DNA of 64,000 bases from an uncultured Pelagibacteraceae bacterium (GTDB lineage: Bacteria > Pseudomonadota > Alphaproteobacteria > Pelagibacterales > Pelagibacteraceae), in NCBI GenBank assembly GCA_902610655.1, contig CACLWL010000006.1, positions 1-64,000 of the forward strand, in the 5' to 3' direction. Below the pieces are notes generated by a model. The model made no database searches, was not told where the DNA came from, and saw only the letters and a program-made list of their open reading frames with translations. A program made the position numbers and the translations under genes. Shown one piece after another: positions 8,448-32,140 of this stretch (within the stretch, counting starts at the first letter, position 1; every line of letters starts with the position of its first letter).

Positions 8448-9944
8448 ATGAAGTTATTTTTTATACTTGGAAATCAGTTATTTCCACCAAAATATCTAGA
8501 CCGCTTCAAAAATGATCACTTATTCTTCATGTCTGAGGATCACGAATTATGCACATATGAAAAGCACCATAAATTGAAAATTCTATTGTTTTTATCATCT
8601 ATGAGATCACATGCAGATAATTTGAAAAAAAATAAATTTAAAGTTGAATATACTAATATTGAAACAAGCGATTTTAAAAAGGATTATTTAGATAAAGTTA
8701 AGAAGGTAATCAAATCAAAAAAAATTAAAGAAATCACAAGTTTTGAAATTGAAGACAAATTCTTTGAAAAAAAAGTACAGAGTTTTGTAAAAAAAAATGA
8801 CTTAATTTGGAATAAAATTAAATCACCAATGTTTTTAAATTCTAGAGAAGAATTTAATGACTATCTATCTAAAAATAAAAGACCTTTTATGGCGACCTTT
8901 TATAAAGGTACAAGACAAAAACTTAATATTTTAATGAATAAAGATGGAGCACCTGAAGGAGGTAAATGGAGCTTTGATGAAGATAATAGAAAGAAACTTC
9001 CTAAAAATACAAAAGTACCAAAGTTTCCAATTATTTCAGAAACAAAACATACTAAAAATTTGAAACCTATCATTGAGAAAATATTTAAGGACCATCCAGG
9101 GAGTACACAAAATTTTTGGTTTGCAACTGAATACAATGATGTTGTGAAACTTTTAAATTTTTTTTTAAAAGAAAAATCAAATTTATTTGGTGACTATGAA
9201 GATGCAGTTGACCAAGGAAACAATATTCTATTTCATAGCGCCCTAAGTCCATACATCAACCTTGGTCTAATAACTCCTGAATTTATTATCTCAAAAACTT
9301 TAGAGTTCCATAAAAAAAATAAAATAAGGCTTAATTCGTTGGAAGGTTATGTAAGACAAGTAATTGGGTGGAGAGAATTTATGAGGGGCGTTTATCAAAA
9401 GTATAGTGATGAAATGGAAACAAGAAATTTCTTTAAACAAAACAGAAAAATGAAAAATTCGTGGTATGAAGGAACAACGGGTCTACCACCTTTGGATTAT
9501 GCAATTAAAAATGCATTAAATCATGGCTGGTCACATCATATTGAAAGGTTAATGATACTTTCAAATATAATGAACCTTTGTGAAGTAAAACCAAAGATTG
9601 TTTATAAATGGTTTATGGAAATGTTTGTAGACTCGTCTGATTGGGTAATGGTACCAAATGTTTATGGAATGGGTTTATTTAGCGACGGAGGTATCTTTGC
9701 AACCAAACCTTATATCTGTGGATCTAGTTATTTTATGAAAATGATGGATTTTAAAAAAGGTGATTGGTGTAATACAATGGATGGATTGTATTGGAGATTT
9801 ATAAATAGAAATAGAACTTTCTTTTTAAAAAATCCAAGACTATCAATGATGGTAAGAATTTTTGATAAAATGAAACCTGACAGAAAAAAATTAATATTGT
9901 CAGAGGCTGAAAAATTTATAAATAAAAACACATATGGCAATTAA
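8448..9944 (+). CDS. Cryptochrome/photolyase family protein (PhrB/CryB-type), lacking the Fe-S CxxC pair
   Basis: FAD flavoprotein of 498 residues in the deoxyribodipyrimidine photolyase-related family, the group that includes (6-4) photolyases such as Agrobacterium PhrB. The N-terminal antenna-type domain starts FFILGNQLFP. The FAD-binding half contains GYVRQVIGWREF (about 300-311), HHIERLMILSNIMNLC (363-378) and DSSDWVMVPNVYGMGLFSDGG. C378, C424 and C441 are present, but the usual CxxC before the last Cys is replaced by KKGD (436-439). It likely repairs UV lesions in surface-water cells. It overlaps the DCC-family gene by 11 bases and heads a three- or four-gene operon. Confidence 0.85.
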   Translation: MKLFFILGNQLFPPKYLDRFKNDHLFFMSEDHELCTYEKHHKLKILLFLSSMRSHADNLKKNKFKVEYTNIETSDFKKDYLDKVKKVIKSKKIKEITSFEIEDKFFEKKVQSFVKKNDLIWNKIKSPMFLNSREEFNDYLSKNKRPFMATFYKGTRQKLNILMNKDGAPEGGKWSFDEDNRKKLPKNTKVPKFPIISETKHTKNLKPIIEKIFKDHPGSTQNFWFATEYNDVVKLLNFFLKEKSNLFGDYEDAVDQGNNILFHSALSPYINLGLITPEFIISKTLEFHKKNKIRLNSLEGYVRQVIGWREFMRGVYQKYSDEMETRNFFKQNRKMKNSWYEGTTGLPPLDYAIKNALNHGWSHHIERLMILSNIMNLCEVKPKIVYKWFMEMFVDSSDWVMVPNVYGMGLFSDGGIFATKPYICGSSYFMKMMDFKKGDWCNTMDGLYWRFINRNRTFFLKNPRLSMMVRIFDKMKPDRKKLILSEAEKFINKNTYGN

Positions 9945-10284
9945 AGTTTTTTTTAATAATTCGTGTAATGTTTGTAGACTAGAGATAAATCACTACAAAA
10001 AGATTGCCGATAGTAATTTGGAATGGATCGATATTACAAATAATGAAGATGCAATTTCATTAACCTCAAAAACGCAAGCAGAGCTTTTGAGAAGACTTCA
10101 TGTTATTCAAGATGGCAAAGTAATTGGTGGAGCAAAAGCATTCTTAATTATTTGGTCTAATATTCCAAAATATAATTTTTTGTATAAAATTTTGAGCATT
10201 AAACCATTATTTGTATTATTTCATTACGTGTATGAAATTGTTGCATATTTTTTATTTTTAAAAAATAAACATCAGTTAAAATGA
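9934..10284 (+). CDS. DCC-family (DUF393) thiol-disulfide oxidoreductase-like protein
   Basis: 116-residue protein of the DUF393 family, named for its N-terminal DxxCxxC motif; here FFNNSCNVCRLE carries the CxxC pair at residues 11-14, with Asn in place of the usual leading Asp-Gly. A long hydrophobic C-terminal segment (FLYKILSIKPLFVLFHYVYEI) suggests membrane association. It overlaps the photolyase gene upstream by 11 bases and the DUF2256 gene downstream by an ATGA overlap, so translation is coupled. A redox role beside a flavin photolyase is plausible but inferred. Confidence 0.8.
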   Translation: MAIKVFFNNSCNVCRLEINHYKKIADSNLEWIDITNNEDAISLTSKTQAELLRRLHVIQDGKVIGGAKAFLIIWSNIPKYNFLYKILSIKPLFVLFHYVYEIVAYFLFLKNKHQLK

Positions 10285-10412
10285 AAAAAACTCATTTACC
10301 TTCTAAATTATGTGCCGTTTGTAAAAGACCTTTTAATTGGAGGAAAAAATGGAAACTTAATTGGGAAAAAGTTAAGTATTGTTCAAAGAAATGTTCTAGT
10401 AAAAAAATATGA
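10281..10412 (+). CDS. DUF2256 small zinc-finger-like protein
   Basis: 43-residue protein with four cysteines in two pairs: LCAVCKRPFNWRKKW and VKYCSKKCSS, the exact pattern of the DUF2256 family, which is often found next to cryptochrome/photolyase genes. It probably binds one zinc ion. Start and stop overlap both neighbours (ATGA at 10281-10284 and again at 10409-10412), giving strong support for translation. Function is unknown; the association with photolyase is known from genome context in other bacteria. Confidence 0.85.
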   Translation: MKKTHLPSKLCAVCKRPFNWRKKWKLNWEKVKYCSKKCSSKKI

Positions 10413-11851
10413 AAATAAACATAACTAAATATTTAAAAAAAATTATATTTTTATGTTGTTTAATATTACCAAATAAACTTTATGCTGATTTTTTTGAGGA
10501 TTTAACAAGTCAGATCGTTGATAACCCAAAAAGACTTAGTTATGGTGTTTCTGTGACTGATGTAAATCAAGATGGAAACTTTGATTTTGTGGTTACCGGT
10601 TTTGGCTATTTTAATTTGGCTCTATCATATGAAGATGGAAAGTTAATAAATATAGTAGATGAAAAAATATTCTCAGATGAGTTTAGGAGAACAATTGGTG
10701 TAGCAGCATGTGATATAGATAAAGATGGATTTGAAGAAATATACTTTCTTAATACTGATACATATAGTGGGACAAAAAAATATTCAGATAGGCTCATAGA
10801 TTTTGAGGGGGATAATTTTGTAGATTTATTTGAAATTGAAAAAAATAAAACGGATCTAAATTTAACTGCTGGTAGGTCTGTTGTATGTGTTGATAGAAAT
10901 GGAGATGGAGCTTACGGTGTATATGTTGCTAATTATGGAGGGCCTACAAGGTTTTATGAATATGAAGATCAAAAAATTGTCGATAAATCAGTTCAATTAA
11001 ATTTAGCAAAAGTTACAGGTGGTAGAGCCGTTGTAGCAGGTCATATCATTTCTAATAAAATGGATATTTTTGCTGCTAACGAACGAGGTGCAAATTTTCT
11101 TTATAAAAATAACAACGGTAAATTTTTAGATGTTGCATATGAATATAGAGTTGAAGATGTCCTTCAAAATGGCAGAGGAACAGCTCTATCTGATATATAT
11201 TACAGAGGAAGATTAGATATTTTAAATGGAAATTGGGGCGGATTTCATAGAGCATATGTCTTAAAAGATGACGTATTTGAGGATATTGCAAAACCAACAT
11301 TTGATGATCCTACAAGAATTAGAACAATTATCTCTGCTGATTTAGACAATGATGGATATGATGAGGTTTTCATGAACAATATAGGCGAACCAAATAAACT
11401 CTTTAAAATTATGGACAACGGCGTTTTAGAGCAATTATCATTAGATATTGGATTAGAGCCAGATGGTTATGGTACTGGAGCTGCAGTTGCAGACATAGAT
11501 AATGATGGTGTATTGGAACTATTAGTTTCCCATGGAGAAAGTAGAGATCAACCATTATCTCTTTATAAAGCAAAAGTTGATGCTAACCATAAATATTTAA
11601 GAGTAAAACCTTTAAACAAATATGGAGCTCCCGCCAGAGGGGCAACCGTAACCCTTATTTCAAATTTAAGAAAACATTCCAAAACAATAGATGCTGGATC
11701 AGGTTATTTGTGCCAGATGGAGCCAGTTGCTCATTATGGAATTAGAAAAAATGAAAAAGACATAAGAGTTCAAATTAAATGGACAAATGGAAAAACTAAA
11801 ACAATTTCAGTTAAAAATTTAAATAAGACTATTACTTTAAGGCAAAAATAA
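10409..11851 (+). CDS. Exported FG-GAP/VCBS repeat protein with ASPIC/UnbV C-terminal domain
   Basis: 480-residue exported protein. A signal peptide (MKINITKYLKKIIFLCCLIL...) is followed by an integrin-like seven-blade propeller whose Ca2+-binding loops are visible as DVNQDGNFD, DIDKDGFEE, DRNGDGAYG, DLDNDGYDE and DIDNDGVLE. The final ~75 residues (GAPARGATVTLISN ... IKWTNGKTKTI) form an ASPIC/UnbV domain, the CRTAC1-type arrangement. Probably periplasmic or cell-surface. The start overlaps the DUF2256 stop, so it may belong to the photolyase transcript, although no functional link is evident. Converges with the fasciclin gene with no gap. Confidence 0.85.
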   Translation: MKINITKYLKKIIFLCCLILPNKLYADFFEDLTSQIVDNPKRLSYGVSVTDVNQDGNFDFVVTGFGYFNLALSYEDGKLINIVDEKIFSDEFRRTIGVAACDIDKDGFEEIYFLNTDTYSGTKKYSDRLIDFEGDNFVDLFEIEKNKTDLNLTAGRSVVCVDRNGDGAYGVYVANYGGPTRFYEYEDQKIVDKSVQLNLAKVTGGRAVVAGHIISNKMDIFAANERGANFLYKNNNGKFLDVAYEYRVEDVLQNGRGTALSDIYYRGRLDILNGNWGGFHRAYVLKDDVFEDIAKPTFDDPTRIRTIISADLDNDGYDEVFMNNIGEPNKLFKIMDNGVLEQLSLDIGLEPDGYGTGAAVADIDNDGVLELLVSHGESRDQPLSLYKAKVDANHKYLRVKPLNKYGAPARGATVTLISNLRKHSKTIDAGSGYLCQMEPVAHYGIRKNEKDIRVQIKWTNGKTKTISVKNLNKTITLRQK

Positions 11852-12325
11852 TTATTGCAAAGGTTGAAGAACTCTATTTATAAAATGAATTACTCCGTTT
11901 GAAACTTCAACATCAGCTGTTACAACCTCAGCCTCATTTATATAAACTATACCATTTACTTTTTTAATAGTGATTTCCTCTCCATTAATTGCTTTGAGTT
12001 TAATTTCACCATCTATTTCTGATGAGGTTATTTTTTTTGTAAAAACGTGTCGGCCTAATATTTTTACAAGTTTATTTTTGTTCTCCTCTCTTAATAAACC
12101 ATAATATGTTTGTGCGCTAATGGCTGCAAATGCATCATCTAAAGGTGCAAATACAGTAAATGGTCCATTTCCTTTTAGATTTTCAATTAAACCAGTTTTA
12201 GTGAGAGTTTCATTTAATTTATTAAATTTTCCTGTTTCGTTAAGTTTATCAATAACATTTCCAAATGCTACTGATGGTACAAGTACCATTATAAGCAAGC
12301 TTAATAATTTAAATAATTTATTCAT
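11852..12325 (-). CDS. Exported fasciclin (FAS1) domain protein
   Basis: 157-residue protein with an N-terminal signal peptide (MNKLFKLLSLLIMVLVPSVAFG) and a single FAS1 domain. The H1 box is seen as GPFTVFAPLDDAF and the H2 region as NGVIHFINRVLQP. Single-domain FAS1 proteins are extracytoplasmic and linked to adhesion or unknown envelope roles. Length fits the bacterial single-domain type. No operon partner on the same strand. Confidence 0.9.
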   Translation of the reverse strand: MNKLFKLLSLLIMVLVPSVAFGNVIDKLNETGKFNKLNETLTKTGLIENLKGNGPFTVFAPLDDAFAAISAQTYYGLLREENKNKLVKILGRHVFTKKITSSEIDGEIKLKAINGEEITIKKVNGIVYINEAEVVTADVEVSNGVIHFINRVLQPLQ

Positions 12326-12430
12326 AAGACTTAAATAGCTATAAATTTAAATTTTGAAAGGATAATTAAGTGCGACAAATGTTAAAATAAAAATGCTTCT
12401 AAACAGTAAAATATAATGTATTTAAGATAA

Positions 12431-12574
12431 ATGACTTTTTGTTCTGTATCATTATTTGCACTAATCGCTGCGGCATTAGCTATTTTTATTTTTAGAAAAC
12501 CCTCAAAAGCAGAGTTAAATAAATTTAAAAAAGAAGACCAAGAAAGATTTAATTGGTCAAAAATGGGTTTTTAA
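12431..12574 (+). CDS. 47-residue single-pass microprotein (copy 1 of 2)
   Basis: A 47-codon ORF: a hydrophobic segment from about residue 4 to 20 (SLFALIAAALAIFIF), then FRKPSKAELNKF at 21-32, a charged stretch, and a C-terminal WSKMGF. A second ORF at 30645-30788 has exactly the same length, with FR-PSK at 21-26, WSK at 42-44 and GF at 46-47. This parallel conservation of position and ends is strong evidence that both are real genes. Predicted single-pass inner-membrane peptide with a basic cytosolic tail. Function unknown. It lies 20 bases upstream of the Cys-rich periplasmic protein gene, same strand. Confidence 0.75.
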   Translation: MTFCSVSLFALIAAALAIFIFRKPSKAELNKFKKEDQERFNWSKMGF

Positions 12575-12594
12575 TCATTTTAATTGAAAACTAA

Positions 12595-13296
12595 ATGAGA
12601 CTTTTACGTAATTTCAAAAAATTAATATTAATTTTTTTAATTACTTTAACTTTTTCAAATATCTCTATTTCTGAAGAAAAAAATTACTATAAAGATTTAG
12701 TTACTGATTGGTCCAGGATTTTTCCTGATAATAATAGAAACGCTGCAGGCCCTAAATTTTTTAAATATATAATTGATAAAGACATCTCTTACAAAGATTT
12801 TGTTGAATATAATAAGTTATATTGTGCTGTATCTGGATCGCTGATTGATCCTAACAGCACTCCTGAGTTTGTAAATATAAATGAGGAAAAAACAGGAAAA
12901 AAAATATGTGGAAATTATTACAGATGCTGCGTTCCTTGTTCATGTGATTTAATGAAATATACAACAGTAAAAAAAATGAAACATAAGTTTAAAGATGTAA
13001 CCAAAGAATTTTATGTTCTTACGATTGATAACCCTTGCTCAAAAAAAGATTTTCCTGAGAGAGTAACAAAAAAATATTTTTGTGATGGTAATAATATTGC
13101 AAAAGACCAAGTTTATAATCTTGATGGCAGAATGGTAATAGGTTTATTTCATAATACTAAGCTTTGTAATGATAATGATATTAAAATTGTTAAAGCCCAT
13201 CCTGTAACTGGTGAATATTGTGATATCAGAAACAATACACCATTAGAAGAATTACAAGCTGGCATGGGAGATATATTTATTAAACTTGCTAGATAA
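12595..13296 (+). CDS. Cys-rich exported protein of unknown function
   Basis: 233-residue protein not recognised. An N-terminal signal segment (LRNFKKLILIFLITLTFSNI) points to the periplasm. It has many cysteines, clustered as ICGNYYRCCVPCSCD near residue 102 plus later single Cys (NPCSKKDF, YFCDGNN, KLCND, GEYCDIR), suggesting disulfides or a metal site. The final 7 bases overlap the convergent photolyase-like gene. It follows the 47-residue microprotein on the same strand and may share its transcript. Confidence 0.75.
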   Translation: MRLLRNFKKLILIFLITLTFSNISISEEKNYYKDLVTDWSRIFPDNNRNAAGPKFFKYIIDKDISYKDFVEYNKLYCAVSGSLIDPNSTPEFVNINEEKTGKKICGNYYRCCVPCSCDLMKYTTVKKMKHKFKDVTKEFYVLTIDNPCSKKDFPERVTKKYFCDGNNIAKDQVYNLDGRMVIGLFHNTKLCNDNDIKIVKAHPVTGEYCDIRNNTPLEELQAGMGDIFIKLAR

Positions 13297-14428
13297 ATTT
13301 AGTAATTATTTTTGGTATATATCCTTTAAAATTAAAAAAACCTTTATTGCAGAAACTCCAAGAAAATTGGTCTAACTCTCTATAAAGAAATTTATAATCA
13401 CTTAATTCTGATAAAATATAATCTAAATTCTCACCAATACTCGGATACAAAATATAATAATCATCTTTGATATCTTTTAATTTATCAATAGTAAGAATTT
13501 CACAATCAATTGATAAAGTTCTAATTCTTTCAAGCTGGTCATTTAGTAAATCAGTTTTAAACTTTATTACCTTATCGCTAAGTTTAATTTGTCTAAATTT
13601 ATTAGGATTGTTAATTAAAACTATCTTATTAAATTTGTATTTTTTCAAATCTGCAATTTCGAAAGATAAATTGTTTTCAAATATGACAAGAGTTTTATCA
13701 TTTTCTATCACAGGATTAACAAAATCTTTTTTAATTATTGGATAGGTTTTTTCAGATACTTTTGGAGGTACATTTTCGTTTAGTTTGATATTTTGAAATC
13801 TATTATTTGTAAATTTTTTAATATTCCATTCGGAGGCTAAATAATGTTTCCCTTGTGTTTGTATACCAGCGACCCATCTCCAACCCAATGTATTTGATGC
13901 AGCATCTCCATCATAAAGGTATTTTAAAAAAAACTCAGCTCCTAATTGCCAAGGTAAATCAAGTGTGAAAATCCAAATACTAGCAAACCACATTCTTGTA
14001 TGATTGTGTAAATAATTATACGTTTTTAATTCTTTAACCCACTGATCAAAGCATTCAATATTAGTTTTACCCTCTATTGCCTCTAAATATTTTGGATCGT
14101 CTTCATATTCTTCTCTTATAATTTTTAAGTTAATTATATAATCACTCCAAACTGATGATCTTAGCTCTAACCAACCTTTCCAATAAACCCGCCATAAAAC
14201 TTCTTGAATAAATTTTTCTATTTTTACAAATGAATGTTTTTTTAATGAAAGACTCATTACCTCAATTTCTGATAATACTCCATGAGTTATATAAGGGGAT
14301 AAACAAGAAATATTTCTTCTTTGATCCGGTCCAAAATCAAAATTTCTAAGCTTTGAATACTCTGATAAATTATTATTAATAAAATTAATTAATTTTTTAC
14401 AAGCAAAATCTCTATTTGGTTCAAACAT
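13289..14428 (-). CDS. Photolyase-like FAD-binding protein with C-terminal alpha/beta extension
   Basis: 379 residues. Residues 1-210 are the FAD-binding half of the photolyase/cryptochrome superfamily: IQEVLWRVYWKGWLE (74-88), NHTRMWFASIWIFTLDLPWQLG (142-163, split here for length), DGDAASNTLGWRWVAG (173-188) and QTQGKHYLA. The normal N-terminal antenna domain is absent. Instead residues ~245-379 look like an alternating beta/alpha Rossmann-like segment (TLVIFENN, KIVLINNP, CEILTID, YYILYPS), as if the antenna domain had been moved to the C terminus. It is a second photolyase homolog in this window and the last gene of the small-protein run on the minus strand. Repair activity is not established. 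Confidence 0.75.
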   Translation of the reverse strand: MFEPNRDFACKKLINFINNNLSEYSKLRNFDFGPDQRRNISCLSPYITHGVLSEIEVMSLSLKKHSFVKIEKFIQEVLWRVYWKGWLELRSSVWSDYIINLKIIREEYEDDPKYLEAIEGKTNIECFDQWVKELKTYNYLHNHTRMWFASIWIFTLDLPWQLGAEFFLKYLYDGDAASNTLGWRWVAGIQTQGKHYLASEWNIKKFTNNRFQNIKLNENVPPKVSEKTYPIIKKDFVNPVIENDKTLVIFENNLSFEIADLKKYKFNKIVLINNPNKFRQIKLSDKVIKFKTDLLNDQLERIRTLSIDCEILTIDKLKDIKDDYYILYPSIGENLDYILSELSDYKFLYRELDQFSWSFCNKGFFNFKGYIPKIITKFI

Positions 14429-14451: not shown

Positions 14452-14691
14452 TTAATTTCCTTTTTTTCTTGGATCCTTAAGACTTTGAAGCACTCCAGCT
14501 AATCCAGATAATTTTATGCTGATATAAACTATATAAACTAAAGTTGCACCAAGAGCCATTGTTGAAAAAAATACAAATATCGCAGTTAAGAATTTTTCGG
14601 TGAACCAATTTTCAACATCTGAATTTGACAAATATAATATATTCCAAAAGGCTAAAAATATTAGTTCATAAGTAATTATTACTTTATACAT
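14452..14691 (-). CDS. Small two-helix membrane protein, unknown
   Basis: 79 residues with two hydrophobic segments (IITYELIFLAFWNILYLS and a longer one around FLTAIFVFFSTMALGATLVYIVYI) and a basic tail ending DPRKKGN. No family recognised. It starts 2 bases after the DUF2798 stop and precedes the photolyase-like gene by 24 bases, so it sits in the long minus-strand run. Confidence 0.65.
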   Translation of the reverse strand: MYKVIITYELIFLAFWNILYLSNSDVENWFTEKFLTAIFVFFSTMALGATLVYIVYISIKLSGLAGVLQSLKDPRKKGN

Positions 14692-14692
14692 T

Positions 14693-14914
14693 TCAGTTGC
14701 TTATATTATCTACAAATCGTTTTGCAATAGGTCCTACCAACAATGAGACAATAATTGCAATAGGTAGACCTACAGACCATGCCTTTAAAAACCTCATAAA
14801 ATACTCATTATCATAACCCGTATTGATGAAAGTAATAATAAGCGTCATTAAAAGACTCATTCCAAAGCCCATTATCAAAATATAAATTAAATTGGAGTAT
14901 TTTTTAGGAATCAT
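14693..14914 (-). CDS. DUF2798 small membrane protein
   Basis: 73 residues matching the DUF2798 pattern: two membrane helices, the first ending TLIITFINTGYDNEYFMRFL, then a Trp (KAWSVGLPIAII) and VGPIAKRFV at the end. Family function is unknown. The start overlaps the stop of the SMR-like gene by an ATGA overlap, indicating translational coupling with a small transporter-like protein. Confidence 0.8.
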   Translation of the reverse strand: MIPKKYSNLIYILIMGFGMSLLMTLIITFINTGYDNEYFMRFLKAWSVGLPIAIIVSLLVGPIAKRFVDNISN

Positions 14915-15249
14915 GATGAAGTTTTACCAAGTAAATTAACAATTAAAACGCCTGAAATAATTAATACCATTCCCAAAATAGTATAAAGATCTGGAAATTG
15001 ATTAAATTTTAAAATTCCAATTACAATTGTAGCTATAATGCATAGACCTGCAAAAGAAGCGTAAGTAATACCAACAGGAATAGTTTTCATAACCAAAGAC
15101 AATGTATACATACATCCAACAATTGTAATTGCAGTCATTAAACTTGGTATTAACAATGTAAAACCTTGAGCACTCTTAGCAAATCCATTTGCAGCAGTAC
15201 CTAGCGCAACAGCAATAATAAGAATTATATAAGGCAAAATATTACTCAT
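14911..15249 (-). CDS. Small multidrug resistance (SMR/EmrE)-family protein lacking the essential Glu
   Basis: 112 residues, four membrane helices, colinear with EmrE: SAQGFTLLIPSL, IPVGITYASFAGL and ILGMVLIISGVLIVNLLG match the family. The proton/substrate-binding glutamate of helix 1 (E14 in EmrE) is Val14 here (IIAVALGTA), and the helix-3 Trp63 position is Phe. A canonical proton-coupled cation exporter therefore seems unlikely; it could be a partner subunit or carry another substrate. Length is normal for the family. Followed by DUF2798 with a 4-base overlap. Confidence 0.8.
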   Translation of the reverse strand: MSNILPYIILIIAVALGTAANGFAKSAQGFTLLIPSLMTAITIVGCMYTLSLVMKTIPVGITYASFAGLCIIATIVIGILKFNQFPDLYTILGMVLIISGVLIVNLLGKTSS

Positions 15250-15256
15250 TCAGAAA

Positions 15257-15475
15257 TTATAAATGAAATATTAAAAAATAAAAATAAATTATCCATAGGA
15301 AACAAGTTGCCATAGTAACAAAAATTATAGTTATACCTGTTGCAGTTTCATTCTTGTATTTTTTATTAACCTTGTTTCTCCAACTTTTTGGGTATAATGG
15401 AATTGTAAGTGCGTATATGATTAGAAAAAAGTCAAGCGCAGTAATAACTATACAGAGAAAAAGTAATTGATCCAT
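15257..15475 (-). CDS. Small two-helix membrane protein, unknown
   Basis: 72 residues, two hydrophobic helices (LLFLCIVITALDFFLIIYAL and ITIIFVTMATCFLWIIYFYF) joined by a basic loop (KSWRNKVNKKYKN). Not recognised. Same-strand gaps of only 6-7 bases to the TPR gene upstream and the SMR-like gene downstream argue it is a true member of the run. Confidence 0.65.
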   Translation of the reverse strand: MDQLLFLCIVITALDFFLIIYALTIPLYPKSWRNKVNKKYKNETATGITIIFVTMATCFLWIIYFYFLIFHL

Positions 15476-15481
15476 TATTTA

Positions 15482-16027
15482 TCATATACTTTCTTTTTTA
15501 ATTAATTCTTTTAATTTTTCGATCATTACCAAAGGTGTCTCCATGGCAGGATAAACTTTATGTGCCTCTACATAACTATCAATAGCTTTTTGATAATTTT
15601 TTAAACCTGTTTGCACAAGCCCTTGGCCCGATAAAGCTCCAAAGTGTCTCTTTTCTAAACTTAAAACCATATCAATATCATTCTGTGATAATTCTAAGTT
15701 ACCCATAAGATATAAAACTGTAGCACGTTTATTCCATGCTTCAGCCCAGTTGGGATCCAGTTCAATTGCTTTTGAAAAAACGTTATGTGCACTAGTAAGT
15801 TGGTTTTGAGACATATATTCGGAACCTTTTGCCAACAAACTAGTCAAGCTATCTTGAGTTGGATGCGTAGTCCATAGCTTCCAAATTTTTCCCTCAATTT
15901 TTCTTGCAGACATAGGGTTACTTGTTTTTTTTAATTTTTCAAATAAACCGTCTAGTTCTGCTACAGTTTCGCTTTGTGCAAAAGAAATCGAAGAAAAAAC
16001 AAAAAAAATTAAAAATAATTTTTTCAC
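15482..16027 (-). CDS. Exported TPR-repeat protein
   Basis: 181 residues with an N-terminal signal peptide (MKKLFLIFFVFSSISFAQS) and two to three tetratricopeptide repeats; one is clear at LTSAHNVFSKAIELDPNWAE followed by AWNKRATVLYLMGN, and another at LKNYQKAIDSYVEAHKVYP. Likely a periplasmic scaffold; partners unknown. Its start directly abuts the stop of the NTF2-like gene, consistent with cotranscription. Confidence 0.85.
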   Translation of the reverse strand: MKKLFLIFFVFSSISFAQSETVAELDGLFEKLKKTSNPMSARKIEGKIWKLWTTHPTQDSLTSLLAKGSEYMSQNQLTSAHNVFSKAIELDPNWAEAWNKRATVLYLMGNLELSQNDIDMVLSLEKRHFGALSGQGLVQTGLKNYQKAIDSYVEAHKVYPAMETPLVMIEKLKELIKKESI

Positions 16028-16348
16028 TTATTTTGACATAGGGGTTGCACCAGTTTCTAAACTTATAATTTTTCCATCTTTATATTTGTAAACTGCCATT
16101 ACTGCCTCGACATTTCCATCATCAAAAGTCACGATTGCGTGGTGCACACCAACTTCATTGTTTTCATAAACTATTCTTGATTTATCTTGTTTAATATCAC
16201 CACTCATAGCCCATTTAATTACATCTGCCTTACCTAGAGTATTTCCAGATTTATGCATTGTGAATTTAAAATCATCATGCAAAATTGTATTCAGAGCAGA
16301 TTCATCTTTATTCTTCATAGCATTACTATAGTTTTCCATTATTGACAT
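16028..16348 (-). CDS. NTF2/SnoaL-like protein (third copy in the run)
   Basis: About 106 residues of the nuclear-transport-factor-2 cone fold: an N-terminal helix (MENYSNAMKNKDESALNTIL), then HDDFKFTMHKSG, TFDDGNVEAVMAVYKYKDGKII. The start is set at 16348, not the upstream ATG at 16354: a GGAG lies about 7 bases before 16348 but only 2 bases before 16354. Members of this fold bind or isomerise small hydrophobic molecules; substrate unknown. Adjacent to a four-helix membrane protein gene. Confidence 0.75.
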   Translation of the reverse strand: MSIMENYSNAMKNKDESALNTILHDDFKFTMHKSGNTLGKADVIKWAMSGDIKQDKSRIVYENNEVGVHHAIVTFDDGNVEAVMAVYKYKDGKIISLETGATPMSK

Positions 16349-16365
16349 CTTCATTCTCCTTTTTA

Positions 16366-16788
16366 TTAGTAGTTGTAGATTTTATCCGCTAGACCATAAC
16401 ATAAAGCAGCGCTCAATGTTGTAAATATAAGAGGGGCAATTATTCCCTCTCTTGATCTCTCGGGTTGTTTTATTCCAGTTTTATCAATTAGAATTGAGTA
16501 TGAGTTAACAATAAATATACACAAGTTTTGTAAGAATACTAAGTTAAAAAAAGATCCCGCTCCTACAACTCCATTAGTTCTTACAAAGAGTATATATAAT
16601 GCCATCAAAACCCAGCCAGCCATGAAGGCTCCAACAAATCTTACTAATGGAAAGGCTGTGTCGTCTAATTGATATTTTGTACAAAATTTTCTTGTGCCAA
16701 AGATTGTTTGAAATGAATAAATACCTATTCCCGCAAAGTGAATTATATAGATCAGTAAATAGTAAATATTGTTAAATTTTTCTATCAT
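16366..16788 (-). CDS. Four-helix membrane protein, unknown
   Basis: 140 residues with about four hydrophobic helices (IYYLLIYIIHFAGIGIYSF, AFMAGWVLMALYILFV, FFNLVFLQNLCIFIVN, APLIFTTLSAALCYGL) and a cytosolic-looking KTGIKQPERSREG loop. No family recognised. A good ribosome binding site (aaaggag) precedes the ATG, and it starts 1 base after the DUF1330 stop. Confidence 0.7.
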   Translation of the reverse strand: MIEKFNNIYYLLIYIIHFAGIGIYSFQTIFGTRKFCTKYQLDDTAFPLVRFVGAFMAGWVLMALYILFVRTNGVVGAGSFFNLVFLQNLCIFIVNSYSILIDKTGIKQPERSREGIIAPLIFTTLSAALCYGLADKIYNY

Positions 16789-16789
16789 C

Positions 16790-17077
16790 TCAAACTCCTT
16801 TAATTATTATTAAATTTCCCTCAGTGTTGTTTAACCTTAAATCTATGATTTGTTTGTATTCATCGGAATTATACCACTCTAGGGCTTTTTCGTAACTTGG
16901 AAATTTTATCACTACATTTCTTCCAAACTTCCATTCACCCTCTAATGATTTGAATTCCCCAGCTCTTACAAGATATTCACCACCAAATTTTTTAACAGTC
17001 GTTGGGACTTTATCGGCATATTCTTTGTACCCTTCTTTACTTTTCAAATCGATTTGAGCAATAACGTAACCAGCCAT
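16790..17077 (-). CDS. DUF1330 ferredoxin-fold protein
   Basis: 95 residues with the DUF1330 signature: GYVIAQIDLKSKEGYKEY at the start, GGEYLVRAGEFKSLEGEW in the middle and FPSYEKALEWYNSDEYK later. The family is a dimeric alpha/beta-barrel related to ABM and EthD proteins; function unknown, enzymatic roles suspected. It shares one base with the stop of the upstream GYD-domain gene, so the two are coupled. Confidence 0.9.
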   Translation of the reverse strand: MAGYVIAQIDLKSKEGYKEYADKVPTTVKKFGGEYLVRAGEFKSLEGEWKFGRNVVIKFPSYEKALEWYNSDEYKQIIDLRLNNTEGNLIIIKGV

Positions 17078-30584: not shown

Positions 30585-30644
30585 AATCTGAGCTAGGACA
30601 ATTATTCCCATTATAAAATTAACGATTATTTATTAACTTACAGC

Positions 30645-30788
30645 ATGGTACCTATTGTATTTTCTTTAACCGTTCTTACAGTCATATTGTTTATTGCATT
30701 TATGTTTAGAACACCCTCAAAAAAAGAAATAAAAAAATTTGTTGATAAAACTAATGAAAAAGATATCTGGTCAAAACTAGGATTTTGA
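30645..30788 (+). CDS. 47-residue single-pass microprotein (copy 2 of 2)
   Basis: 47 codons: hydrophobic segment (IVFSLTVLTVILFIAFMF), FRTPSKKEIKKF at 21-32, acidic/basic stretch, WSKLGF at the end. Length and motif positions are identical to the ORF at 12431-12574, although sequence between the motifs differs, which is the pattern expected of purifying selection on a real protein. Predicted inner-membrane peptide with cytosolic C terminus. Function unknown. It precedes a second possible small ORF and msrB. Confidence 0.75.
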   Translation: MVPIVFSLTVLTVILFIAFMFRTPSKKEIKKFVDKTNEKDIWSKLGF

Positions 30789-30792
30789 CCTT

Positions 30793-30894
30793 GTGAAAAA
30801 AAAAATTAAATATTTCATTTATTTTGCTATCTACATAATACTTATACTTATTTTAGCTGCTGTATTTTATGTAAATGGTATTAGTTTAATTTAA
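30793..30894 (+). CDS. Putative 33-residue membrane peptide
   Basis: GTG-start ORF, basic N terminus (VKKKIKYF) and one hydrophobic helix (IYIILILILAAVFYV), 4 bases after the 47-residue microprotein and 6 bases before msrB. The tight spacing suggests a translated gene, but the AT-rich sequence could produce such an ORF by chance. Confidence 0.4.
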   Translation: MKKKIKYFIYFAIYIILILILAAVFYVNGISLI

Positions 30895-30900
30895 AATATA

Positions 30901-31362
30901 ATGAAGAAAAGAAATTTTATAAAATTAATTGCATCTACTTTTGTATCTTTTTTTTTCATTAATATATCTTCACTGTACGCAAAAATAGAAAAGAAAATCA
31001 TAAATAAATCTTTAACAGAGCAGCAAAAAAAAATAATGTTTAAAGAGGGTACTGAAAAACCATTTACGAGTAGTTTAATTAATGAAACTAGAGATGGTTT
31101 TTATCATTGTGCGAACTGTAATGCTAAACTATTTTCTTCAAACTCAAAATTTGATAGTGGAACTGGATGGCCTTCGTTTTCCGAGGCACTCCCTGGAGCT
31201 TTTGTAACAAAGGTTGATTACTCATTTGGCATGAAACGTACTGAGTATCATTGTGCAAATTGTGGCGCACATCATGGACATGTTTTTGATGATGGCCCCT
31301 CTGAAACGGGTAAAAGATTTTGCAACAATGGTCTTTGTTTAATTTTTATTCCCTCAAATTAA
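30901..31362 (+). CDS. msrB: Exported peptide-methionine (R)-S-oxide reductase
   Basis: 153-residue MsrB repairing methionine-R-sulfoxide in proteins. The two zinc CxxC motifs are YHCANCNAKLF and YHCANCGAHHGHVF, the substrate loop is SGTGWPSFSEA, and the catalytic region is KRFCNNGLCLIF. An N-terminal hydrophobic segment with basic start (MKKRNFIKLIASTFVSFFFI) suggests export to the periplasm, unusual compared with cytosolic MsrB but known for envelope repair systems. Stop overlaps the convergent gene by 4 bases. Confidence 0.9.
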   Translation: MKKRNFIKLIASTFVSFFFINISSLYAKIEKKIINKSLTEQQKKIMFKEGTEKPFTSSLINETRDGFYHCANCNAKLFSSNSKFDSGTGWPSFSEALPGAFVTKVDYSFGMKRTEYHCANCGAHHGHVFDDGPSETGKRFCNNGLCLIFIPSN

Positions 31363-31960: not shown

Positions 31961-32140
31961 ATGGAACTAGAAACACATAATTGTAGAAAATGCGGTTTAA
32001 CAATATCAGCAACTTGCTCAAAGTGTCATAGAATTGTTGATGTTAAAAAACTTGATGATGGATGTATCGTTAGAGTTACTAAGTGTGGTGATTGCGCAAA
32101 CACACCAGTAATTAAAGATATTTGTACAAAACAAGCTTAA
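31961..32140 (+). CDS. 59-residue Cys-rich zinc-ribbon-like protein
   Basis: 59 codons with eight cysteines: C8-x2-C11, C19-x2-C22, C35, C42-x2-C45 and C55 (HNCRKCG, TCSKCH, KCGDCA, DIC). Two to three CxxC knuckles suggest one or two zinc ions or an Fe-S site. Probably cytosolic. It is divergent from the unknown gene at 31359 across a Fur-box-like site, making iron-responsive expression plausible. Convergent with the GMC oxidoreductase gene, 6 bases apart. Function unknown. Confidence 0.65.
   Translation: MELETHNCRKCGLTISATCSKCHRIVDVKKLDDGCIVRVTKCGDCANTPVIKDICTKQA

Follow-up and report, generated by a model that had tools for sequence, protein, structure and literature searches.

A family of single-span membrane microproteins of 38 to 47 residues in the Pelagibacteraceae

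Background

Two genes of 47 codons in a 64,000-nucleotide stretch of Pelagibacteraceae DNA (the window) belong to a family of predicted single-span membrane microproteins, which recurs at unrelated loci, in several classes behind a common upstream box and in one class next to the gene of a second small protein with a putative signal peptide. SAR11 bacteria are among the most numerous bacteria of the sea and have streamlined genomes. Despite this streamlining, roughly two in three good genomes of the order Pelagibacterales (59/91, all in family f1) retain one to three copies of so short a gene. We propose, at a probability of about one in three, that the microprotein assists exported redox or stress proteins as a membrane accessory with N-out/C-in orientation. 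Its orientation, its binding to partners and the stress theme are what we infer from the evidence below. With a name and a motif, annotation pipelines could find the family, and the recurrent upstream box and the pairing with an exported protein are concrete handles for assigning its function.

Results

Two diverged copies in one genome

Copy A (positions 12431-12574, forward strand) and copy B (30645-30788, forward strand) each comprise 47 codons beginning with ATG, as a reading of the sequence alone had located them. The motifs noted in that reading, F21-R22, P24-S25-K26, W42-S43-K44 and G46-F47, stand in register between the two. The hydrophobic N terminus was likewise borne out, the best 18-residue stretch starting at residue 3 in A and residue 4 in B with a mean hydropathy of 2.63 and 2.79, respectively. 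Copy A has a span of about residues 3-21, a basic tail, a cysteine at position 4 and the C terminus NWSKMGF; copy B ends in IWSKLGF and lacks Cys4. Both are hydrophobic and free of charges over residues 1-21 and have a tail with 8 basic and 4 acidic residues. A gapless alignment shows 19 of 47 residues to be identical (BLASTP 37.0 bits, E 6e-11 in a single comparison). With a dS of about 1.0 and a dN of 0.58, A and B are old paralogues. The family had been described as present twice in the window, which is correct, and the source genome (1.07 Mb, 82% complete, 44 contigs) likewise has two copies and no third convincing one. Three weaker matches there (E 0.15 or worse) lie within open frames of at least 215 aa; the genome being 82% complete, it may yet hold a third copy. 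That A and B exist as genuine genes is near certain.

Spread, classes and selection

When one genome per species was scanned, 17 loci were recovered, each under a Pelagibacteraceae title. A-type copies made up 12 of these and were 85-100% identical across the full 47 residues. With a 31-row profile at E <= 0.01, 60 of the 92 most complete genomes of the order matched (source genome included), with at most three matches per genome; no copy was detected in 32 of the 91 good genomes. Weak or odd among the 60 are G227 (E 0.009), G207 (7e-6, different end) and G012, a complete genome in which a class F-like copy (L244, G012:C1:378144-378260) is stopped four residues early by an in-frame TGA. Six f2 genomes gave no match with this profile, and weak f2 matches in another scan (E 0.02-1) were taken as chance. 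Among 386 genomes of the class, four Pelagibacteraceae genomes matched and nothing credible was found outside f1; the single outside match, G542 (E 4.5e-4), has a stop inside and was rejected as a member. A viral origin was also rejected, three scans of viral contigs (one alignment each for class E, A/C-type and class F) and one phage search with a class E protein having returned no viral copy.

Members of the family have 38-47 residues and one span, followed by F[RK]xPSKxE..KF and a W, and most end in GF; both window copies show the span, the junction motif and the C-terminal W..GF. The long class of 47 residues comprises A, B, C, C2 and D. The short class of 38-41 residues comprises E (mostly ending NWSNMGF), F (NWRGGF) and G (NWPDM-like end). 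E28 and W42 are invariant in all 31 rows, and G46 and F47 in the 22 rows without class G; that the latter two vary among the 31 is partly due to the L046 row, which is two residues short. Class G lacks the final GF, and L108 and L113 end in GL. Cys4 is present in 33 of 38 distinct long-class sequences and absent in copy B, and the C-terminal WSxMGF is preserved at unrelated loci. Clustering gave 16 locus types. The family proposed from the sequence alone thus exists, and it is wider than was described there, including a class of 38-41 residues, 16 locus types, upstream boxes and a linked exported protein.

The pN/pS from Nei-Gojobori counts, summed across all pairs in classes A to D, was lowest in class A (0.095, 13 sequences), followed by class B (0.21, 4 sequences), class C (0.275, 23 sequences) and class D (0.34, 11 sequences). 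The coding sequence in these classes is under purifying selection. The sequence-only reading had taken A and B for real diverged genes and had suggested a search for SAR11 homologues and a check of substitution rates; both were carried out, and homologues across the Pelagibacteraceae and pN/pS values far below 1 were found.

Anatomy of the protein

Seven class representatives have a best 18-residue hydropathy of 2.3-2.9, an N-terminal part of charge 0 or -1 and a tail with 5-8 basic and 4-5 acidic residues (net charge 0 to +4). The AlphaFold2 model of copy A (22 rows) shows a helix at residues 2-21 with high confidence and a second at 26-44 with low confidence (tail pLDDT 56-69). According to the positive-inside rule, the basic side of a span is cytoplasmic, by which the tail is probably located in the cytoplasm; the class C tail, with a net charge of 0, is of little help for this orientation.

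Comparison with databases

The statement that no named family fits held up: Pfam, NCBIfam and PHROGs gave weak matches only (best E for 31 members 0.0014 in NCBIfam and 0.0009 in PHROGs). Among the scores examined, FixQ (PF05545) comes nearest to its Pfam cut-off, with 12 weak matches for the 31 members, the best (L079) at E 5.1e-5 and 23.6 bits against a cut-off of 29. FixO/CcoO was found in 0 of 92 genomes with a search whose control gave a signal in Caulobacter vibrioides and Synechococcus elongatus, two of 14 known genomes; as FixO was not found in them, the 92 genomes show no ccoNOQP operon context. Membership in CcoQ/FixQ, the strongest sequence lead, was therefore rejected. YajC (PF02699) reached at best 16.9 bits (L072) among the scores examined, below its 28.2. 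A PDB sequence search with the family returned two matches only (E 0.31 and 0.75). One of 31 members touches a PADLOC model (E 0.0026), which was taken as chance, and a link to defence was rejected. Nothing on the family was found in the open-licence literature.

Neighbours of copies A and B

Upstream of copy A lie c0, encoding an FG-GAP / UnbV_ASPIC protein (10409-11851, forward strand) and neighbouring A, C and C2 copies, and between c0 and copy A, divergent from the latter, the gene of a fasciclin-domain protein (11852-12325, reverse strand). Directly 3' of copy A, after a spacer of 20 nt, follows c1 (12595-13296, forward strand), which encodes a conserved Cys-rich protein of 233 aa with an N-terminal hydrophobic segment (by eye a signal peptide) and which is probably exported. 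Classes A, C and C2 repeat this arrangement of an FG-GAP gene upstream and c1 downstream, the exception being the class C-like locus L034. The c1 protein has no Pfam or NCBIfam match. Its AlphaFold2 model is confident (pLDDT 86.5); neither the fold (E <= 0.001) nor the sequence matched an entry of the PDB. c1 is present in 39 of 91 good genomes, 36 of which also carry the microprotein, not always adjacent; G213, G280 and G204 have c1 without a detected microprotein.

Around copy A (8448-14428), the window encodes a deoxyribodipyrimidine-photolyase-related protein, a photolyase FAD-domain protein, DCC1-like and DUF2256 proteins and the fasciclin protein, which suggests a light-damage island. 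On the reverse strand at 14452-17077 lies a cluster of small genes with DUF2798, an SMR transporter (14911-15249, 2.3 kb from copy A), DUF1330 and others; in other genomes, relatives of this cluster adjoin the SCPMM gene described below or the class D microprotein.

Four nt after copy B begins a second microprotein gene (30793-30894, forward strand), which starts with GTG and encodes 33 hydrophobic residues (VKKKIKYFIYF...). It is conserved at L015, L016, L017 and L050, has a pN/pS of 0.17 (window, L015, L016, L017) and no Pfam match. The next gene (30901-31362, forward strand) encodes MsrB, whose N terminus looks by eye like a signal segment. An ORF for 59 Cys-rich residues with CxxC pairs (31961-32140, forward strand) lies between the MsrB gene and a gene which by eye encodes a GMC-type oxidoreductase.

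Neighbours named by Pfam or NCBIfam comprise MsrB, Fe/Mn superoxide dismutase, photolyase-type proteins, DCC1-like thiol oxidoreductase, cupredoxin and SRAP. Genes were called as the longest non-overlapping ORFs with ATG only, by which GTG and TTG starts and small genes are missed.

Upstream DNA boxes

Copy B is preceded by the box TAGGACAAT (30594-30602, forward strand), 51 nt 5' of the ATG and the only exact match in the window, which is followed by CCCATTATA at 30607-30615. TAGGACAAT is found 51-61 nt 5' of the ATG in B, most of C and C2 and part of D, and the genes ahead of it are a histidine-phosphatase gene (B), the FG-GAP gene (C, C2) and the SMR gene (D). Copy A carries GTGCGACAAA (12370-12379, forward strand), whose GACAA starts 57 nt 5' of the ATG, a spacing which differs by no more than 1 nt from that of TAGGACAAT in classes C and D. 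Variants occur at nearly equal spacing, TACGACAAT at L041/L082 and TATGACAAA/TACGACAAA at L040/L042. A word as long was common to B, C and D (one representative each) in 4 of 2000 dinucleotide shuffles and to five representatives in 0 of 2000, the loci C/C2 and D/L034 in this larger set being non-independent. In 12 genomes, TAGGACAATN4-8CAT has ten matches, located in 6 of them, of which six precede microprotein genes and four fall within other ORFs; this count leaves out the copies in G009 and G298 (TAGGACAAT without CAT) and G215 (TACGACAAT). The reversed-pattern control of TAGGACAAT-N4-8-CAT gave 18 matches as compared to these ten, so that the position of the box before the gene is special, not its number. 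A genome-wide TAGGACAAT regulon was rejected, there being no enrichment over the reversed control in the 12 genomes. At L035, box and microprotein are separated by an alpha/beta-hydrolase-like gene (by eye), and the box stands 61 nt 5' of this new first gene, an arrangement more in keeping with a promoter or operator than with a leader belonging to the microprotein.

Class E loci share another word, AAGTCGCAGTGA, about 42 nt before the start at four of them (L018, L046, L083, L098) and 65 nt before the start of the SCPMM gene in the source genome. This sharing was seen in 0 of 2000 shuffles, in a test in which the L098 start was set 3 nt too far downstream. Variants stand by eye at six more class E places; at 9 of 19 class E places and in classes F and G no such box was seen by eye. 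In 18 genomes, hand-chosen and several of them because the box had already been seen there, exact AAGTCGCAGTGA has 4 matches, 3 before class E copies and 1 before the SCPMM gene of the source genome. Allowing up to one mismatch gave 20 matches in the 18 genomes, fewer than the reversed control, and a AAGTCGCAGTGA regulon was rejected. RpoH- or sigma70-like spacing of the boxes, judged by eye, does not fit, and we propose no factor.

Linkage to the SCPMM protein

SCPMM is a protein of 68 aa with a signal peptide (by eye), GSCPM(M/L) and then a GDHxKS(E/D)ELL helix. Its gene lies 9-19 nt 3' of the class E copy on the same strand at 6 of 19 fetched places (L018, L046, L048, L083, L085, L098; at least three genera), repeat fetches of one place being counted once; the other 13 have no SCPMM gene directly downstream. 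At L074, SCPMM is nearby on the strand opposite to the class F copy. SCPMM and microprotein have operons, neighbourhoods and, at some loci, the AAGTCGCAGTGA box in common, yet no sequence homology, SCPMM consisting of a signal-like segment and a helical, TPR-like part (weak match). None of four SCPMM proteins scanned reached a Pfam cut-off, and NCBIfam gave weak matches only. At E <= 1e-6, SCPMM is present in 27 of 92 genomes of the order (counted by hand); at E <= 0.01 the count is 45 of 92, which includes matches to the signal peptide alone. Among 289 genomes of the class, 24 matched at E <= 0.01, a count which includes the source genome and G201; the relatives in other Alphaproteobacteria are weak.

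SCPMM also occurs in genomes without the microprotein. Elsewhere in SAR11 it stands apart from the microprotein, though partly in the same neighbourhoods: thyX-fumC, PNPase, MsrB-DUF4149, the SMR cluster, the c49-M23-TerC cluster and a photolyase-type neighbour, several of these names being assigned by eye. The SCPMM gene of the source genome (L226, G000:C3:74404-74607) is the one with AAGTCGCAGTGA in front and stands two genes behind a PNPase-like gene. At L147, L151, L152, L153, L156 and L159 (Pelagibacter), SCPMM lies amid small proteins (by eye SnoaL-like, ABM-like and others).

Genes within 4 kb were compared between 18 SCPMM places, 51 microprotein places and 20 control loci, which were hand-picked without looking, not randomly generated, and not matched to the genomes one to one; the test was framed after some of the tested loci had been seen. 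At least two gene families in common with SCPMM places were found at 26 of 51 microprotein places versus 0 of 20 controls, and one at 33 of 51 versus 3 of 20, counts which are non-independent, many of the 51 places being related. Collapsed to locus types the result was 8 of 16 versus 0 of 19 controls (p 0.0005), collapsed types pooling more genes than control types and thus having a greater chance of sharing. When each type was reduced to one representative, 4-7 of 16 shared at least two families, with a median of 6; p was 0.005 for the median draw and 0.035 for the lowest. Without L071, whose place coincides with that of an SCPMM locus, and without types having both genes together, 4 of 11 types remained, by representatives a median of 3 of 11 (p 0.04) and 2 of 11 in the lowest draw (p 0.13). 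In the reverse direction, 8 of 9 SCPMM types versus 1 of 19 controls shared families. This overlap of neighbourhoods is support, not proof, of a link between the two proteins; the shared loci could instead be hot spots for small genes, which would produce the same pattern.

Discussion

In the reading which we prefer, the N terminus would be outside and the C terminus in the cytoplasm, the tail would form a short interfacial helix, and the W..GF end may dock on a partner. From the membrane, the microprotein would then assist or regulate exported proteins which handle oxidative, perhaps light- or metal-driven, damage. Candidate partners are SCPMM for class E, c1 for classes A and C and MsrB for class B, each probably encoded in the same operon. 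The redox and stress theme was chosen after the neighbours had been seen and without a background comparison. Neither the class F place between fabI and PNPase nor class G behind c49 shows such a theme, and at class D the microprotein is followed by SRAP, by eye not exported. A single simple role is disfavoured by these three settings and by the genomes without a copy.

Somewhat less probable, and for us a tentative alternative, is that the microprotein serves a constitutive membrane complex of respiration or transport as a small subunit for structure or assembly, similar to CcoQ, CydX or KdpF, and that its gene has settled in permissive gaps of the genome. Size, single span and layout of the tail are similar, a class F member reaches 23.6 bits with Pfam FixQ, and the adjacency to MsrB, superoxide dismutase and c1 may be incidental. 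However, the 29-bit cut-off of FixQ was not reached, FixO is lacking in 92 of 92 genomes, and 32 of 91 good genomes without a detected copy would be odd for a subunit of a core complex.

A further reading, which we regard as doubtful, would be a portable module of a private promoter or operator box and the membrane microprotein, with or without SCPMM, which was copied to at least a dozen SAR11 places, each time bringing an exported redox or repair gene under common control and supplying its membrane partner. It would constitute a lineage-specific membrane arm of the defence against photo-oxidative damage.

It is unlikely that the microprotein modulates a small transporter in the manner of AcrZ, for instance the SMR proteins encoded beside class D copies and at a distance of 2.3 kb from copy A. 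The copy does follow a gene of the SMR cluster at the class D loci L024, L052, L055, L059, L063 and L069 and at the class C-like L034, and the window has its own SMR gene; in classes A, B, C, E, F and G, however, other genes directly adjoin, and SMR-like genes (by eye) also occur at L150, a place without the family. A leader-like ORF, of which the translation rather than the peptide would matter by coupling the expression of the next gene, is improbable. The spacers to the next gene are short (9-19 nt to SCPMM at six places, 20 nt from copy A to c1), but the amino acids of span and tail are conserved, WSxMGF persists at unrelated loci, and at the class F fabI-PNPase place (L075, L076, L077, L089) the gene that follows is convergent. 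Least likely of all is a membrane toxin of a type I toxin-antitoxin system (Hok/Fst-like) in scattered copies: the small size, hydrophobicity and patchy occurrence at many loci and the one of 31 members which touches Hol_Tox (PF16935, holin-like toxin; E 0.072) stand against purifying selection, the position of copies before other genes, the lack of any other toxin among 23 Pfam families (E <= 0.1, 31 members) save BhlA holin and the putative bacteriocin YxzE (E >0.08), and a window in which Rfam shows a single tRNA and no antisense family.

Several known systems come close to the microprotein. Like CcoQ/FixQ, the small subunit of cbb3 cytochrome oxidase, it has about 40-50 aa, one span, a junction of the F/Y-x-P-x-K type and a short charged tail; the FixQ match covers span and junction, ending at residue 33 or before in the scores examined, whereas the C-terminal motif is another one. 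DUF2976 (PF11190) is a weak match for both copies of the window, with 15.6 and 16.5 bits over residues 8-46, but its cut-off of 28.2 is not reached and its model is longer (87 positions). AcrZ, MgrB, KdpF and CydX are small single-span regulators or subunits which bind a larger membrane protein. The microprotein is like them in size and in its single span and differs in that no such family is among the 23 Pfam families listed for the 31 members at E <= 0.1. We take it as a new family within this known kind of small single-span membrane proteins.
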